A stretch of DNA of 64,000 nt from Nitrososphaerota archaeon (GCA_015522695.1 WALT01000010.1:62001-126000), one strand, 5' to 3'. Counted from the first letter of the stretch, positions 3,572 through 11,556 are shown. Numbers and translations: made by a program. Notes: a model not told the origin generated them from the letters alone.

Positions 3572-3715
3572 ATGGGCTTCCACATCTACCTGATGATGCG
3601 AATTAAATGTTCGAACTTGGGATGATGAACGGCGTTGTCATGACGAGATTTATGTGGTCTGGCCCCCAAGAATGGCCCAGGACCGTGTCGGATTGATCAT
3701 CCAGGATCTACAATA

Positions 3716-3724
3716 TTTATATTT
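3716..3724 (+). promoter_or_regulatory. TATA box of the KaiC-like gene
   Basis: The AT-rich element TTTATATTT is centred about 30 bases before the TTG start at 3750. That spacing would place transcription initiation nearly at the start codon, so the mRNA is probably leaderless. The rest of the 178-base gap after bax1 (3572-3749) shows no further recognisable element. Confidence 0.6.
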
Positions 3725-3749
3725 GGGATGATGACAAGGTTAGCAAGCA

Positions 3750-5093
3750 TTGAGAGAGGCCCGTGGTCGAGCGTTCGCATCCACAGGGGTCGGTGGACTC
3801 GATGAGATCCTGGGCGGAGGCTATATGAGGGGCCATTTGACATTATTGGCTGGCAACCCAGGCTCGGGGAAAACTACGATGGCTTCACAGTTCCTCTACA
3901 ATGGGGCGAAGGAAGGCGAGCCCGGAATCTACATGAATTTCGTTGAACCGAAGAGCGATTTCTATAAGAACATGGAGAAATTAGGGATGGAGTTCGAGAA
4001 GCTAGAGGACGAGGGTCTGTTCGAGTACATCGAGGCCCCAAGCTTCGTGGATGCGGAATCCCTCGCCGGGATGGTGGCAGACACCATGGGCGATATAACG
4101 CGTATGAGTGCTAGAAGGTTTGTCATAGACAGCATATCGGCGATAACCGGCATGCTCACGAAACCGGAGACCAGATCCATGATCCACACAGGACTCCTTC
4201 GCCCCCTGAAATCCATGGGCGTCACCACTGTGCTCGTCGCTGAGTTACCCTATGGTGGTACAGTAGTAGGTCATGGCATCGAGGAGTTCCTGGTGGACGA
4301 TGTGATAATATTGGAAACGAAGGAGGAAAAGGGACTCCTCAAAAGGACGTTCAGGATACCGAAAAGCAGAGGGGTGGAAGTCAGGTACTATGCGTACGAG
4401 TTCGTGATAGCCAAGGGAGGTGTGCACGTCATGAAGCCTTTAGATCCTCGCTTCAGGGGAAAGCTCGAGAAGGAGAAGGCCTCGACAGGCGTCGAGGGGC
4501 TCGACAAGCTCCTCTATGGTGGGATAAGATACAATAGCAACGTGCTCGTCGTCGGCCCGGAAGGTATCGGCAAATCCATGTTGTTGATGACCTTAGCATG
4601 TACGTTCTCGAGGAGGGGTGAGACTGTGGTCTACGTCAGCCTTGAGGAATCGAAGGACCAGATAATGTCGTTGATCCAGGAGATATGTGGAGGATCTGAG
4701 ATCACCAACATAAATGTATTTGCCACCCCTCCTAACGCATTCACGGTAGGCCAGTGGCTCTATCAGACTCGAGAAGCGAACGAAAGGATAAAACCCGGAT
4801 TGGTGTTGATCGATGGGGTTGCAGCCCTGGAAAAGCATTTCGGCGAAGGGGCCTTCATAACGTTGATGCGCGACTTCACGCTGTTGACTAAAGGCTCATA
4901 CCAGATACTGGTGTTATCTGCCATACCTAGAGTCTATGATGCCCTAAGCACTCTCGCCGATGTGATAATCCGGATGTGGTACGACGATGATAGGAGGAAG
5001 GTGAGGGTGATTAAGACGAGGGGCTCCAACTGTGATATAGAAGAACATGAATTCGATATCACCGACAAAGGTATCAGGGTTAAGTTGGATTAA
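3750..5093 (+). CDS. KaiC-like protein with two RecA-type ATPase domains
   Basis: This is a soluble ATPase of the archaeal KaiC-like group with two RecA-like domains of about 220 residues. Domain 1 opens with GVGGLDEILGGGYMRG and Walker A GNPGSGKTT (residues 35-43), with the Walker B region RRFVIDSISA. Domain 2 repeats the plan with GVEGLDKLLYGGI, GPEGIGKSM and LVLIDGVAAL. At 447 aa it lacks the C-terminal autophosphorylation tail of cyanobacterial KaiC, and no KaiA or KaiB is present. Archaeal relatives are thought to act as ATP-dependent signalling or motility regulators; the precise role here is unknown. The start is TTG, supported by the TATA spacing. Its 3' end overlaps the convergent PhoU-type regulator by 14 bases. 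Confidence 0.85.
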   Translation: MREARGRAFASTGVGGLDEILGGGYMRGHLTLLAGNPGSGKTTMASQFLYNGAKEGEPGIYMNFVEPKSDFYKNMEKLGMEFEKLEDEGLFEYIEAPSFVDAESLAGMVADTMGDITRMSARRFVIDSISAITGMLTKPETRSMIHTGLLRPLKSMGVTTVLVAELPYGGTVVGHGIEEFLVDDVIILETKEEKGLLKRTFRIPKSRGVEVRYYAYEFVIAKGGVHVMKPLDPRFRGKLEKEKASTGVEGLDKLLYGGIRYNSNVLVVGPEGIGKSMLLMTLACTFSRRGETVVYVSLEESKDQIMSLIQEICGGSEITNINVFATPPNAFTVGQWLYQTREANERIKPGLVLIDGVAALEKHFGEGAFITLMRDFTLLTKGSYQILVLSAIPRVYDALSTLADVIIRMWYDDDRRKVRVIKTRGSNCDIEEHEFDITDKGIRVKLD

Positions 5094-6162
5094 CTTCCTC
5101 TATCTTACATGCCTGACTGGAGAACTCCACGCTCCTGTTGAACGCGAGCTCGGCCATCGTCCCGCTCAAGTTCACTATCTGTGCCAGATTGTCCACGAAT
5201 GTCTTTATGGCGAGCGCGGTAGCCATGCTCAACCTACCCCCGCTCTCCAGATAATTATAGGCCATGTTCAGTGCAGCTTTCTTCAACTCGTCCTCCAACA
5301 TGTTCGAGCTCTCGATCAGTATATTGGCCTTGAACGTGTCCTTGGATGCCAAACTCATGAAGGATTCCGTATATATGCTCAACGCCTCGCTCGTGTACTT
5401 GCCGAGTATCTCCACGTCTTTCTCCTTGATCTCAATCCCATCATCCATGACCCTTTTAACCTCTAACGCCATCGCCTCGGCATAATCGCCTACCTTCTCC
5501 AGCAGCTTGGCCACAAGCCTATGGCCAGGCACGTTTATGGGGATCTCCACCCCTATCTTCTGTTGTAGCTCAGGCCTGACGGAGGAAAGCAGCAGCTGCC
5601 TGACGATCAACCAATAGATCCTGTCGGCTTCCTCCTCCGCCATCACCACCTCGTTCACGTGTTCCAAGCTCTTCTCGCGCAGCGCCCTGTAGCTCGTTTC
5701 GATCATGAACCCAGCGATCGTGTGTAGCCTCTTCATCAGGTTCATCACTGGCGATCTCGTTGGATCGATGAAGCTCTGTATCATGACCTTCTTCGATGTC
5801 TGTTCGACTATCCCGAATCCGTTAAGCCTCTCCACGGCGGCCTTTATCTCGCCCATCTGTCTGGCTAATAGACCGCTGTTGCTCACTATGGTGATCGTGT
5901 CTGCGCCCGTAAGGTAAAGGGCTATCACGACCCTGCCGAGCATCCCTGCCTCGTTACAAGTATCAGCATGTACCATCTTATGGCTTCTGGTCTCCTTCTC
6001 CCCGGTTATCCCCGGCTTTACCTTCAGTGAACCATCCTCCAGCCTTATTATGGAGACGAGATCCCCAGGATTAATCCCTATCTTCTTGACCCAATCCTTC
6101 GGGAGCGATATCGATAACGTGGAGTAACCCACCATCTGGACCTTTCTGACATCGACCTTCAT
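5080..6162 (-). CDS. AbrB-PhoU fusion regulator (phosphate-type)
   Basis: This protein combines an N-terminal SpoVT/AbrB swapped-hairpin DNA-binding domain (about residues 1-50; VQMVGYSTLSISLPKDWVKK, GDLVSIIRLEDGSLKVKP) with two PhoU-like helical repeats (about 130-350; DRIYWLIVRQLLL, KLLEKVGDYAEAMALEVKR). This architecture is typical of archaeal phosphate-uptake regulators. A role as a transcriptional regulator responding to phosphate is inferred from the family; no pst or phosphate transporter genes lie in the window. The ATG at 6162 is about 24 bases from a strong TATA element. It converges on the KaiC-like gene with a 14-base overlap, so the two mRNAs would be complementary at their 3' ends. 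Confidence 0.85.
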   Translation of the reverse strand: MKVDVRKVQMVGYSTLSISLPKDWVKKIGINPGDLVSIIRLEDGSLKVKPGITGEKETRSHKMVHADTCNEAGMLGRVVIALYLTGADTITIVSNSGLLARQMGEIKAAVERLNGFGIVEQTSKKVMIQSFIDPTRSPVMNLMKRLHTIAGFMIETSYRALREKSLEHVNEVVMAEEEADRIYWLIVRQLLLSSVRPELQQKIGVEIPINVPGHRLVAKLLEKVGDYAEAMALEVKRVMDDGIEIKEKDVEILGKYTSEALSIYTESFMSLASKDTFKANILIESSNMLEDELKKAALNMAYNYLESGGRLSMATALAIKTFVDNLAQIVNLSGTMAELAFNRSVEFSSQACKIEEVNPT

Positions 6163-6180
6163 GATGCGCCCCCAAGTAGA

Positions 6181-6202
6181 TAAAAAATATACACTATTTA
6201 TG
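6181..6202 (-). promoter_or_regulatory. TATA region of the AbrB-PhoU gene
   Basis: On the minus strand this reads as two adjacent AT-rich elements, CATAAATA and TATATTTTTTA. The inner one is centred about 24 bases from the ATG at 6162, so the transcript is likely leaderless. Confidence 0.55.
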
Positions 6203-6253
6203 CATACCTCTCCTTATGTATAATCCGTCGATGAAGGTAGAAGTGGAGAATCA

Positions 6254-6288
6254 CTTTTATTCAGCCCTAAGTTAGCGCTGGTGAGGTG
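6254..6288 (+). promoter_or_regulatory. TATA-like element and Shine-Dalgarno site of mrp
   Basis: CTTTTATT at 6254-6261 is a plausible TATA element about 39 bases before the start. GAGGTG at 6283-6288 is a clear ribosome binding site 8 bases before the GTG at 6297. Unlike many genes here, this one appears to have a short leader, and the site supports the GTG start. Confidence 0.5.
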
Positions 6289-7409: not shown

Positions 7410-8188
7410 GCGTTGCGGGCTACGATAGGGGTAGCCTGCGGCTTGAAGTGATAGGGGTCCCCGGAATCCCTGAGGTTAAATCTGGAGACGATCTCGGCAA
7501 GCTCATAGTGGAGGCCGCGGTCGCCAATAAGATCTCGATCGAGGACGGGGACATCGTGGTCGTCTCCCAGAAGATCGTGTCGAAGTCTGAAGGCCGTATC
7601 GTGAAACTATCTGAAGTCGAGCCGAGCGAGTTCGCAAAGAACCTGGCGACCAGGATTGGTAAGGGTTCTGAGGAGGTAGAGGTGATATTGAGGGAATCGA
7701 ACGCCGTGATCAGGGTCAGGTGCAACCAAGGGATATTGGTGACCGAGACCAAGCATGGGTTCTTGATGGCGAACTCAGGAGTCGACAAGAGCAACGTCAT
7801 GGAAGGGTACGTCACGTTGCTGCCGGAGGATCCGGATTCATCGGCAAGGAGGATAAGGGAAAGGATACACGAGCTCACGGGGAAGGATGTGGCCGTGATA
7901 GTATCCGATACATGCGGCAGGCCTTGTAGATTGGGGTTGGTCAATATAGCTCTGGGTATCTCAGGGATCTCGCCGTTCAGGGATTATCGAGGTAAACCGG
8001 ATCAGTACGGTAAGATGTTGAAGGTCACTGTGATGACCCATGTGGATGAATTAGCGTCGGCAGCCGAGCTCGTGATGGGCAAAGCCAGGATGGTACCGGT
8101 CGCGATAATAAAAGGTTACAGTTACGAAGGGTCTGATGAGAAGGCGACCAGCGTCATAATGCCCGAGGAGAGTGACATGTTCAGATAG
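7406..8188 (+). CDS. cofE: Coenzyme F420-0:L-glutamate ligase
   Basis: CofE adds L-glutamate residues with GTP to F420-0, making the polyglutamylated hydride carrier F420. Family signatures are GDIVVVSQKIVSKSEGR (about 47-63), VSDTCGRPCRLG, GKPDQYGKMLKVT and DELASAAELVMGKA. At 260 aa it is a stand-alone archaeal-size CofE, without the bacterial FbiB nitroreductase extension. The start is TTG overlapping mrp by 4 bases. Its end overlaps convergent cofD by 8 bases, so two consecutive steps of F420 synthesis sit tail to tail. An F420-dependent LLM oxidoreductase at 30 kb is a likely user of the cofactor. Confidence 0.94.
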   Translation: MSVAGYDRGSLRLEVIGVPGIPEVKSGDDLGKLIVEAAVANKISIEDGDIVVVSQKIVSKSEGRIVKLSEVEPSEFAKNLATRIGKGSEEVEVILRESNAVIRVRCNQGILVTETKHGFLMANSGVDKSNVMEGYVTLLPEDPDSSARRIRERIHELTGKDVAVIVSDTCGRPCRLGLVNIALGISGISPFRDYRGKPDQYGKMLKVTVMTHVDELASAAELVMGKARMVPVAIIKGYSYEGSDEKATSVIMPEESDMFR

Positions 8189-9116
8189 AGTAACCCAGCG
8201 ACCTCAATACATCCTTGGCGAGCCTGGCCCTGGAAGCCCTGTCAATCATCAGGGTATTGGTGGAATGTACATCTATACCCATAGCCCTTATGGCGTCGGC
8301 ATGGACGTCATCCACGCTATCCATGACGATCAAATCCACAAGATCGCGGTAAAGCCTCGCGACGCCCACCGGTGATGGTTCGATATCGAGCTCCCGCATC
8401 ATTTTATCGGCTGGCCCTTTGATCGCCCTTCCTCCGACGATGGGTGAGATCGCCGCCACACCTGTCCTATCCCTGATCCTGGCTCTGATCCCCCCTATAC
8501 ATAATATGGGCATTATGCTCGCCAATGGATTACTGGGTGCTATTATCACGCTGTCAGCTTCTTCGAGTTCCTCAAGGACTCCATGTGCCGGTACAGCGGT
8601 CGAGCAGCCTCTGTAGATAATACCGTTTATCCTGGGCTTAAACTTCAATCTGACATAGTATTCCTCAAAGCTCACGAGCCTGCCATCGGTGAGCTGGACG
8701 AGTGTAGTGACTTTATCGTCAGTGGCAGGGAGTATCCTCGCCTTCACGCCCAACGCCTCCGCGATCTTCGCCGTTACCTCGCTGAGCTTTGTCCCGAGCC
8801 GGAGCTTGAACGTCCTGTAGATATGGGTTGCGAGGTCCATATCGCCGAGCATCATCCAGATGTCGGACCCGTATCTCCTCAACATCTCGAGGGCGCGAAA
8901 TCCATCGTCAGCAAATCCCCATCCCTTGCCCTCATCGATGAGCCCAGCCAGAGTGTATGTGATTATGTCCAGGTCTGGCGACACCTTGAGCCCTAGAACC
9001 TCGATGTCATCCCCGACGTTCACAACGGCTGTCACGTTTTCTTGACCTATGATATCAGCAAGTCCCTGTGTGAACCTCGCCGCTCCGACACCTCCAGCTA
9101 GGACGGTGACCTTCAT
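8181..9116 (-). CDS. cofD: 2-phospho-L-lactate transferase (F420 biosynthesis)
   Basis: CofD transfers the phospholactyl moiety (or an analogue) to the deazaflavin Fo, giving F420-0. The N-terminus MKVTVLAGGVGAARFTQGL is the nucleotide-binding loop. VNVGDDIEVLGLKVSPDLD, LGDMDLATHIYR and IIAPSNPLASIMPIL are strongly conserved family blocks. The ATG at 9116 is preferred over an upstream in-frame start because it fits the family N-terminus and overlaps the stop of the JAMM-E1 gene as ATGA; the product is 311 aa. It is therefore the last gene of the E2/JAMM-E1 operon, though its function points to cofE. Confidence 0.94.
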   Translation of the reverse strand: MKVTVLAGGVGAARFTQGLADIIGQENVTAVVNVGDDIEVLGLKVSPDLDIITYTLAGLIDEGKGWGFADDGFRALEMLRRYGSDIWMMLGDMDLATHIYRTFKLRLGTKLSEVTAKIAEALGVKARILPATDDKVTTLVQLTDGRLVSFEEYYVRLKFKPRINGIIYRGCSTAVPAHGVLEELEEADSVIIAPSNPLASIMPILCIGGIRARIRDRTGVAAISPIVGGRAIKGPADKMMRELDIEPSPVGVARLYRDLVDLIVMDSVDDVHADAIRAMGIDVHSTNTLMIDRASRARLAKDVLRSLGYSI

Positions 9117-10351
9117 GATGACACCCCGCCGCAAATCGGGCAATCGATCCTTCTCGGGACGCTGACCTTGACGATCGGCTTCAACCCTCCCCTTATCAGC
9201 TTCTCGACATCGATATAGAGGAGGCTATACTTAGGATCCTCCCTTCTGAGCAGGCTCAAGGACGCCTTTACCGCCTCGAAGATCGCAGGCATCATGTTTA
9301 CATGTAGAGCACCGGTAACGGGCTGTCCATACATAGCCTTCAGCCTAGGTGGCGCCTCCATATTCAGCTTGGATATCCCTGTATAGGATAACACACATCT
9401 GTAACAACCCCTGCTGCCATCGCTTGGCACCAGGATGACGTCAGCATACTTGGATCCGGGGCCGACGAAGGCTGAGACCAGCGGCACGCCGAGCTTTACG
9501 GCCATGTCGTTTACATATAGATTGGAACTATGGGAATCGGTCATAGCCAGAGCTAGATCTGAGCCCTTCATTATTTCCTCCAAGCCCTCCTCATCGACCT
9601 TCATGGGAAATCTCTCCACACTAGTGTACGGATTGTGATCGCGTATCATCTTGGCCACGACGTCTACCTTCATCGCTCCAACACCTCCCAATCCGACGAA
9701 ATGTCTGGTCACGTTCGCCGGTGCCAAAATATCTGGATCGACGAGCTTGAACGAGCCGACTCCAGCCTCCGCTAATAGATATGCTATCATACTTCCACCG
9801 CTCCCAAGACCTACTATCGTAACGGTCTTGTCGAGCATTTCCCAGAAACCCCCATGTCTAGAGCCGACCAGCACATCCTCCTCTTCGAACTTCTCAGCCC
9901 TCCATATCGGGGCAAGAGGTGAGCTCACCAGCAAATCCCTTCCAGGATCGTAGAGATATGCCGCAACCTTCCTTCTCGCGATCAGCAGCATCAAATAGCT
10001 GCCACGATACTCCTCATATCTCCTGCTGATCGCCCTCGCAGCGATGGCATCGCCCCCGGAGGGCCTCGGCTCGTCCTCAAACCAATGGCTATGCCAGTCC
10101 CCGATGAGCTCGGCAGGAAGTCCCCTTTCGGCATATGCCCTTAGAAGTTCCGCGGCGCTTTCCGAATCCGGTAGACAACGTCCACTCGAATATAATCCCT
10201 TCTTGCTGGCCTCGGCGATGACCAATGCATCTCGATATCTGTAACCTATCAACTTCCCACATCTCTCCTCCTTTTTCTGGAAACCCCTCCTGGCCTCCCT
10301 CGATATCCCGTTGAGGACCCTCCTCTCGATATATACGATCCTTGGAACCAT
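9113..10351 (-). CDS. JAMM metalloprotease-E1 (ThiF-like) fusion protein
   Basis: This is a two-domain protein of 412 aa. Residues 1-150 are a JAMM/MPN+ domain: E29 before CGKLIG, then H87-S-H89 and S98-x-x-D101 (WHSHWFEDEPRPSGGD), the full zinc-peptidase set, with eight instead of the usual seven residues between the second His and Ser. Residues about 165-412 are an E1/ThiF adenylating domain: VGLGSGGSMIAYLLAEAG (GxGxxG), VDPD at 204-207, N213 and R216. Two CxxC pairs (C316/C319, C404/C407) probably bind zinc. No other cysteine lies in the E1 part, so a classical thioester cysteine is not evident. The ATG at 10351 follows the E2-like stop by one base. JAMM domains remove, and E1 domains activate, ubiquitin-like modifiers. 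Confidence 0.85.
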   Translation of the reverse strand: MVPRIVYIERRVLNGISREARRGFQKKEERCGKLIGYRYRDALVIAEASKKGLYSSGRCLPDSESAAELLRAYAERGLPAELIGDWHSHWFEDEPRPSGGDAIAARAISRRYEEYRGSYLMLLIARRKVAAYLYDPGRDLLVSSPLAPIWRAEKFEEEDVLVGSRHGGFWEMLDKTVTIVGLGSGGSMIAYLLAEAGVGSFKLVDPDILAPANVTRHFVGLGGVGAMKVDVVAKMIRDHNPYTSVERFPMKVDEEGLEEIMKGSDLALAMTDSHSSNLYVNDMAVKLGVPLVSAFVGPGSKYADVILVPSDGSRGCYRCVLSYTGISKLNMEAPPRLKAMYGQPVTGALHVNMMPAIFEAVKASLSLLRREDPKYSLLYIDVEKLIRGGLKPIVKVSVPRRIDCPICGGVSS

Positions 10352-10352
10352 C

Positions 10353-10796
10353 TTAGAACACCGTCTTCGAACAGAAACTCCCTTCGTCCTCCTCATAGAA
10401 ATCTCTGATGAACGCAGCCGCCTGGAGCATGGCGAACGCTACGGGTCCGTCAGGATGGGGGAGGGCGATTGAAACCCAGACATCATCGCTCATTATACAC
10501 GGTTTCCCTCCTATAACGTGACACGGAAGCTCATGCGTGATATCCACAGGCTTTCGTCCTTTCATCCTGTATATGCTCGTTTCCGGAGCCTTATAGAGGG
10601 GGTTCTCGACGAATCTTAGGACGACCAGATGTTTGATGATGCGTCCCTTCGAGAATCGATAATCGACGTAGAAACTGAGTTGTAACACGCCCCTCTCGAC
10701 GTCGAACTTGAGGTCTGGGTTATACGATCTTGCTTTTTTAATCCATCCCTCTGCGATCTTTAACCATCTCAATCCAGGCAAATCACTAGCTCCCAA
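10353..10796 (-). CDS. E2-like (UBC-fold) conjugation protein, putative
   Basis: This 147-aa protein has the features of prokaryotic E2-like proteins. A central strand region (RIIKHLVVLRF) leads into prolines at 66 and 71 (NPLYKAPETSIY). Then comes a His-Cys block, HVIGGKPCIMSDDVW (H93, candidate catalytic C100, W107), and a C-terminal helix (AFAMLQAAAFIRDFYEE). This follows the UBC order of a P-x4-P segment, a His, an active-site Cys in a GKPC turn and a downstream Trp. The assignment rests on this pattern and on the adjacent JAMM-E1 gene, not on clear whole-length similarity. The TTG start at 10796 overlaps the preceding small ORF by 11 bases. Confidence 0.7.
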   Translation of the reverse strand: MGASDLPGLRWLKIAEGWIKKARSYNPDLKFDVERGVLQLSFYVDYRFSKGRIIKHLVVLRFVENPLYKAPETSIYRMKGRKPVDITHELPCHVIGGKPCIMSDDVWVSIALPHPDGPVAFAMLQAAAFIRDFYEEDEGSFCSKTVF

Positions 10797-11001
10797 CCGT
10801 CATACCAAAGTAGGGAACGGCGGGTATCCTTATCACTCTACCATCCGGGAGGATTATTATCCTCTCCCCCAGTAGGGCCCAGCTGACATCCCTGGTTCCC
10901 AGGATGAAAAAGGTCGATGGAGGTTCCTCTTCCTTCTCCCTTCTCTTCTTCGCCGGCTTTTTCCTGGACTTGTCCGGCGGCCCCGTTGAAGGATGGGACA
11001 A
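10786..11001 (-). CDS. 71-aa small protein heading the E2/JAMM-E1 operon
   Basis: This small protein of unknown function has a Lys/Arg/Glu-rich, probably disordered N-terminus (about residues 10-28, KSRKKPAKKRREKEEE). A beta-rich tail of about 43 residues follows, ending PYFGMTVGS. The TTG at 11001 is chosen because it lies about 30 bases from a good TATA box; the frame is open further upstream, but that part overlaps the promoter. It overlaps the E2-like gene by 11 bases. Its size and position match those of a modifier gene at the head of ubiquitin-like operons, but no ubiquitin fold or terminal Gly-Gly is evident. It may instead be a target or accessory protein. Confidence 0.55.
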   Translation of the reverse strand: MSHPSTGPPDKSRKKPAKKRREKEEEPPSTFFILGTRDVSWALLGERIIILPDGRVIRIPAVPYFGMTVGS

Positions 11002-11027
11002 CCCTCCAGTAGGTGGTGTGTCAAGGG

Positions 11028-11035
11028 TTTTATAA
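11028..11035 (-). promoter_or_regulatory. TATA box of the E2/JAMM-E1 operon
   Basis: On the minus strand this reads TTATAAAA, centred 30 bases from the TTG at 11001. It would give a leaderless transcript covering the 71-aa protein, the E2-like protein, JAMM-E1 and cofD, which are all joined by overlaps or a one-base gap. Confidence 0.65.
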
Positions 11036-11089
11036 CATTTCAGCCCGTGGGCTAGACCAGCTGATTTTCCGCATGATCGTCCAACTCCA

Positions 11090-11125
11090 CCGGTTGGAGG
11101 TCCTCTGTGGAGATTCCTCAACCGG
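11090..11125. repeat. Inverted repeat upstream of the E2/JAMM-E1 promoter
   Basis: The left arm CCGGTTGGAGG (11090-11100) and right arm CCTCAACCGG (11116-11125) pair over ten positions with one bulged base, around a 15-base spacer. A second, smaller hairpin (TCCAAC at 11080-11085 with GTTGGA at 11093-11098) shares the left arm. The element lies about 55-95 bases beyond the TATA box of the minus-strand operon. It could be a protein-binding site or a transcribed structure; nothing in the sequence decides between them. Confidence 0.45.
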
Positions 11126-11262
11126 CAGCTGCAGGTCCAAGGACGGTCGAAGTGACGTACGTGAAGACTGGGCCTCCTTCCGTCGATGGCCGTTGAAATA
11201 GAATTCCCATGTGTGATGGATCGTTCACGGCCTCTCCCATCGGAGGACGGGCATCGTCCCCT

Positions 11263-11286
11263 TCAATCTCAATCTCAATCTCAATC
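11263..11286. repeat. Four tandem copies of TCAATC in a long intergenic region
   Basis: Four perfect hexamer units lie in the gene-free stretch between the operon promoter (11035) and the DUF131 promoter (11523). Apart from the inverted repeat at 11090-11125 and this microsatellite, I see no gene, RNA or element in that stretch of almost 490 bases. Short ORFs there have no family features. Confidence 0.7.
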
Positions 11287-11522
11287 ATGATGGCCAACGA
11301 GCGATGATCCATCACCGTCCTCATATCTCTACAATCGCTGCAAGGCCGATCGTCAGTGCTGTCCTCCCCCGTTCAATCGGCTCGATGTACTGTGGATAGT
11401 GGAAATGGAACATCATTCCGGCGTCTCCTCCAACATCGTCAGCCGTATATCGCATATTTGACGAAGTCGATGTCCAGAACTCGACCCTTGGGTCGAGGTG
11501 GATCGATGTTACAGGGATACTC

Positions 11523-11530
11523 TGATAAAT
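11523..11530 (+). promoter_or_regulatory. TATA box of the DUF131 pair
   Basis: TGATAAAT is centred about 30 bases before the TTG at 11557. This supports that start over the longer upstream open frame, whose N-terminal extension has no membrane-protein character. Confidence 0.5.
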
Positions 11531-11556
11531 CACTTTCTCATTATCCGGCCCTGAGC

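Follow-up and report, generated by a model that had tools for sequence, protein, structure and literature searches.

A compact archaeal operon pairing a JAMM-E1 fusion protein with a probable E2-like protein: a candidate cassette for reversible protein conjugation

Ubiquitin signalling probably has its forerunners in prokaryotic operons that combine E1, E2 and JAMM genes, most of them bacterial; the Bil (bacterial ISG15-like) system, for example, consists of separate Ubl, E2, JAMM and E1 genes. A JAB domain fused N-terminally to an E1 defines the bacterial 6e operons, which comprise Multi_ubiq, Prok-E2_E, JAB-E1 and DUF6527, and whose E2 has been described as inactive (Iyer et al. 2006). In type II CBASS, Cap2 attaches a CD-NTase through that enzyme's C-terminus, and no ubiquitin-like protein is required; the last residue of this donor is Gly or Ala, and its change to Ser abolishes conjugation (PMC10097602). 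Among archaea, the Caldiarchaeum operon encodes a ubiquitin precursor, E1, E2, a RING-type E3 and a separate Rpn11, and its pro-ubiquitin provides a precedent for trimming of a precursor by a JAMM protein (PMC5654768). Moreover, a single-chain archaeal Jab-E1 fusion has already been reported in the methanogen RC-I, the passage describing it making no mention of an E2-like partner (Makarova and Koonin 2010, PMC2948915).

The window analysed here, a stretch of 64,000 nucleotides from a Nitrososphaerota archaeon (GCA_015522695.1, WALT01000010.1:62001-126000), carries three tightly packed open reading frames on its minus strand (window 9113-11001), encoding proteins of 71, 147 and 412 aa and followed by cofD (Table 1). 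The first-pass annotation had described three genes joined by an 11-base overlap and a one-base gap behind one TATA box, an F420 gene translationally coupled downstream, and no cGAS-like or obvious toxin gene beside them, and each of these elements is found in its place: the first two frames overlap over 11 nt (10786-10796), the gap of 1 nt falls at 10352, the stop codon of the JAMM-E1 gene and the start of cofD overlap as ATGA (9116-9113), and the operon is bordered by cofD and DUF131 genes, with a PhoU-type regulator, Mrp, cofE and deoxyhypusine synthase also among its neighbours. Between the TATA-like box and the start codon of the 71-aa frame downstream of it the distance is 27-34 nt, a spacing that a leaderless transcript would fit. 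In 200 shuffles of 2.2 kb the longest ORF had a median of 113 codons, a 95% value of 160 and a maximum of 305, and the 412-codon frame exceeded the longest ORF in 200/200 shuffles, which the 147- and 71-codon frames did not. All three nevertheless show a coding signal that is confined to their own frame, with scores per codon of 0.30 for the 71-aa, 0.18 for the 147-aa and 0.29 for the 412-aa frame, against 0.28 for cofD.

Table 1. Features of the operon and its downstream gene, in window coordinates.
Feature	Position	Strand	Basis
TATA-like box TTATAAAA, candidate promoter	11028..11035	-	direct reading, consensus only
71-aa ORF, TTG start	10786..11001	-	ORF reading; coding score 0.302 per codon
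147-aa E2-like ORF (probable), TTG start	10353..10796	-	motif and position; low-confidence model
412-aa JAMM-E1 fusion ORF, ATG start	9113..10351	-	Pfam/NCBIfam, PDB phmmer, alignments, cysteine list
cofD (F420 2-phospho-L-lactate transferase)	8181..9116	-	profile match; ATGA overlap with JAMM-E1 gene

We are confident, judging from its sequence, that the 412-aa protein consists of an N-terminal JAMM and a C-terminal ThiF/E1 domain in which the JAMM, ATP-site and zinc residues are intact. Pfam matched ThiF at 4e-27 and Prok-JAB at 1e-4 (22.7 bits, just below the curated cutoff of 25 bits, which the relatives exceed), and these matches agree with the residues in bearing out the earlier reading of a complete JAMM motif and an adenylating domain in a single chain. 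The JAMM half (approximately residues 1-150) has E28/E29, H87, H89, S98 and D101, corresponding to the E...HxH...S..D zinc site of JAMM/Prok-JAB isopeptidases, and the ThiF/E1 half (approximately 165-410) has GxGxxG at 181-186, R216, K228, D272 and the Zn ligands C316/C319/C404/C407, and so combines a ThiF fold with the GxGxxG motif, Arg finger, Lys and zinc tetracysteine of the E1-like (ThiF/MoeB) superfamily. Of the six cysteines in the protein four are the Zn ligands, while the other two, C31 and C59, belong to the JAMM half, and in an alignment with Cap2, 6a and 6e enzymes it has no catalytic-loop cysteine at the Cap2-type E1 position. In the aligned Cap2 and 6a enzymes the first zinc pair is followed by a loop that mostly has G-C, and this G-C occurs in none of the 412-aa protein, the Nitrosopumilaceae E1s and the 6e E1s. 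Lacking the loop cysteine, the protein is unlikely to form a thioester where other E1s are known to carry it. Its nearest solved relatives by PDB phmmer are ThiF, Uba4 and MoeB, with Cap2 weaker. The best pairwise score of the JAMM domain is with a Cap3 (z 14.6), a Nitrosotenuis JAMM reaching z 12.6, and the JAMM residues and four zinc cysteines are invariant in an alignment of four full-length fusions. In a tree of E1 domains these four fusions did not group; a single origin was not rejected (p-AU 0.21), and neither were the alternatives tested.

The 147-aa protein encoded directly upstream is probably E2-like. The E2-type pattern of P-x4-P, His, GKPC and Trp is present as first described (P66-x4-P71, H93, GKPC100 and W107) and puts a candidate catalytic Cys100 in H93-VIGGKP-C100; this is a motif reading, and no match to an E2 was returned by Pfam, the other profile libraries or a PDB profile search. 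The first-pass annotation would count its reading as refuted if this protein did not model as a UBC fold. An AlphaFold model from four sequences (pLDDT 54, pTM 0.54) has the UBC-like order of helix, strands, active-site loop and helix, and with this low-confidence model Foldseek found no significant match, an RWD domain appearing at rank 3. Because the model was too weak for Foldseek, the E2-like protein of a relative was modelled instead; this model was also weak, and UFC1 and Ube2 structures recurred among its Foldseek matches, none of them significant. When the relatives' E2-like family is aligned with a Nitrososphaeria protein to which Pfam gives a weak UQ_con assignment, the two stay in register through the H and the C, and the family's alignment with bacterial 6a E2 domains beats 100/100 shuffles. 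As for the window protein itself, a global shuffle test against the Nitrosopumilaceae E2-like proteins gave z=4.1 (1 in 1000), local, HMM and hhalign tests were not significant, an HMM built from the relatives' family scored it below zero, and a search of genomes of the class returned only chance-level matches besides the window itself.

Similar to the 6e operons, the window operon has a JAB domain N-terminal to the E1, an E2-like gene immediately upstream and a small protein before that, and 6e E1s likewise have no Cap2-type cysteine. However, no measurable likeness links the JAMM of the window operon to the 6e JAB domain (z -1.2 and 2.0), and Multi_ubiq, DUF6527 and Prok-E2_E gave no profile match in the window operon, although both 6e loci recovered as references match the expected 6e profiles. 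We therefore rejected membership in 6e, since the JAMM domain, the partners and the E2 family differ though the gene order matches. Type II CBASS (Cap2/Cap3) and 6a operons also bring E1, E2-like and JAMM functions together, but in CBASS the E2 is fused to an E1 with a catalytic Cys and Cap3 is separate, and in 6a the order is E2-E1-JAMM, whereas in the window the JAMM is fused to the E1; moreover, the Cap2 and 6a E1s have the G-C loop and an adjacent CD-NTase or MBL gene, neither of which is found here. With one adenylation domain fused to JAMM and no recognisable Ubl, the operon does not have the make-up of Bil either. The Caldiarchaeum operon resembles it in having archaeal E1, E2 and JAMM genes close together, but the window operon has no ubiquitin precursor, RING-type E3 or separate Rpn11. 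The RC-I protein is described as a single-chain archaeal Jab-E1, and to that extent it is like the 412-aa protein. The first-pass annotation had proposed an archaeal variant with activation and deconjugation in one chain; the two domains are indeed fused, but since 6e fusions and the RC-I Jab-E1 were already described, the single-chain JAMM-E1 is not new. Likewise, because a JAB-E1 with an upstream E2-like gene is already known, we regard the locus as a variant of prokaryotic conjugation operons and not as a new kind.

Queried with the window protein, 3/300 genomes of the class, not counting its own, yielded JAMM-spanning relatives, and when 398 genomes of the phylum were searched with a profile, the full length was recovered only in its own genome and in one of those three. 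The full-length JAMM-E1 relatives come from three Nitrososphaeria genomes, G025, G225 (Candidatus Nitrosotenuis GW928_bin.17) and G133, with 25-28% identity (pairwise E 2e-27 at 25%), and in 3/3 of them an E2-like gene with the H...PC motif directly precedes the JAMM-E1 gene. The co-occurrence by which the first-pass annotation proposed to check its reading is thus seen for the E2-like/JAMM-E1 pair, which recurs in three other genomes, and not for the three-gene trio, as the 71-aa gene does not recur upstream of other JAMM-E1 genes. In these Nitrosopumilaceae genomes the pair belongs to a conserved block of six genes (L070 939-6627, L071 703-6399 and L072 821-6388), which encode the E2-like protein, JAMM-E1, a Zn-finger/wHTH protein, a small membrane protein, a HerA/VirB4-like ATPase and a protein of 200-248 aa. 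The flanks of the block are unrelated, and the block probably belongs to a mobile or conjugative element. The block shares with the window the JAMM-E1 architecture over its full length, the E2-like H...PC gene directly upstream and the archaeal class; it differs in its added Zn-finger/wHTH, membrane and HerA/VirB4-like proteins, which are absent from the window operon, in an E2-like protein of 212-224 aa in one frame where the window has 147 aa, and in an E1 with no equivalent of the window D272. A search of the window genome for the Zn-finger partner came up empty, repeats around the operon such as an insertion might leave were of chance size only, and nothing useful came from querying genome contigs with the window protein alone or from scanning viral contigs.

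A presence/absence site is evident nearer to home, at window 9113-11540 against 9032-9111 of the sister-genus locus L100. The complete 1.59 Mb genome of the same family, G008, has cofE, cofD and a DUF131 gene in the window order with approximately 50-80 bp at the operon site, where the window has the operon and up to approximately 540 bp of apparently non-coding DNA. Because the G008 site is without it, the operon was either gained in the window lineage or lost in G008; taken with the differently flanked Nitrosopumilaceae block, this suggests that the operon is mobile. Because the sister genus keeps cofD without the operon, the F420 link looks positional. A tandem repeat, (TCAATC)4, is present at window 11263-11286, between the operon and the DUF131 genes. 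In the window genome (G000, 95.5% complete) we found no second E1, and no ThiS/MoaD carrier (PF02597) of the SAMP/MoaD/ThiS pathway, a family for which 11/14 control genomes were over the cutoff. The ubiquitin family (PF00240) was also without a match in this genome, and since 0/14 controls were over the cutoff this search has no positive control. In none of the same-family genomes G000, G008 and G038 was a ThiS/MoaD protein found, and G008 and G038 are also without an E1-like match.

Taken together, these observations lead us to lean towards a compact, patchily distributed protein-conjugation cassette, and reversible conjugation by the window operon is likely. The E1 half would consume ATP in adenylating a small protein at its C-terminal carboxylate. 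Because this E1 has no evident cysteine relay, we infer that the acyl group would pass from the adenylate directly to Cys100 of the E2-like protein, which may then hand it on to target amines, and the fused JAMM could trim the precursor and/or remove conjugates. As JAMM and E1 share one chain, activation and removal would be held at 1:1. Within the operon the 71-aa product is the sole candidate modifier. It has a Lys/Arg/Glu/Pro-rich start of approximately 27 residues, then a beta-like stretch with a DG turn, and the C-terminus ...FGMTVGS, which would probably need trimming to expose a glycine; since Ser abolishes conjugation in the CBASS donor, it would not serve as it stands. The operon had been called ubiquitin-like at first, and of that claim the encoded small protein stands while its implied identity as a modifier is weakened: the 71-aa protein has no family match in Pfam/NCBIfam, searching 61 genomes of the class gave no relative, and we rejected it as a beta-grasp modifier on account of the lack of any profile, an end in VGS in place of G/GG, and too little length after the basic tail. 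Its VGS resembles the end of the UFM1 precursor, a likeness of three residues that we treat as chance.

Several other readings bear on this proposal. The 71- and 147-aa frames might be halves of one E2-like protein of approximately 215 aa, split by a frameshift through assembly error, decay or recoding, and although we consider this rather unlikely it would account for a number of features: if one base of the 11-nt overlap is skipped, the reading runs on without a break for 215 aa, the E2-like proteins of three relatives measure 212, 214 and 224 aa and their E2 core is preceded by 66-69 residues, a relative's model has an NG-turn beta hairpin before helix 1 like the DG-turn stretch, the TTG start of the 147-aa frame has no obvious Shine-Dalgarno, and the 71-aa ORF is without relatives. 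However, no measurable similarity connects the 71-aa protein with the relatives' N-terminal extension (shuffle p 0.07-0.19), the HMM score was as high in 837/1000 trials when the N-terminal part was shuffled, and short overlaps are ordinary in archaeal operons. A fused frame would mean, with the same rather low probability, that there is no separate small protein and that the locus is a two-gene E2-like/JAMM-E1 unit as in other archaea, which is compatible with the conjugation mechanism but removes its only local candidate modifier.

It is only a tentative and unlikely suggestion that conjugation here dispenses with a classical ubiquitin-like protein altogether, such that a single bifunctional chain would adenylate a non-ubiquitin C-terminus without an E1 thioester, transfer it directly to a separate E2 and remove it with its own JAMM, in an archaeon that shows neither another E1 nor a known beta-grasp carrier. 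Another reading, in which the operon is a CBASS-like antiviral arm for conjugation and an unlinked signalling enzyme donates its C-terminus, strikes us as improbable: the JAMM resembles Cap3, PADLOC E1-E2 models match the E1 half, the distribution is patchy, and Cap2 itself has no need of a ubiquitin-like protein (PMC10097602), but no CD-NTase or effector gene is adjacent to the operon and the E1 has no Cap2 catalytic cysteine. Also improbable, in our estimation, is a role in sulfur transfer or cofactor maturation, with the E1 half as a MoeB/ThiF/SAMP-type adenylyltransferase and the JAMM half as a desampylase-like protease. The nearest neighbours of the E1 domain, by tree path and identity, include archaeal MoeB-like E1s (32% identity), and the missing Cap2-position cysteine would suit such an enzyme. 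However, no rhodanese is fused and an E2-like gene is adjacent, two sister genomes are without both E1 and ThiS, and as the genome has no detected ThiS/MoaD, ubiquitin-family protein or second E1, a sulfur-carrier role is unlikely.

If the proposed conjugation cassette operates, a two- or three-gene archaeal unit in which a Cys-less E1 is fused to its own deconjugase would in our judgement be among the smallest known reversible conjugation systems. Because neither a further E1 nor any known carrier turned up in the host, a search for the attached protein would be clean, and ATP-dependent adducts of this type in the host should come from the window operon. Elsewhere in the Nitrososphaeria, locus L074 (G081; 3582-6277) has separate JAB (332 aa), E1 (418 aa) and E2 (205 aa) genes in one operon, the E2 matching Pfam UQ_con at 5e-5 and carrying a YPLSPP and an H...C motif.
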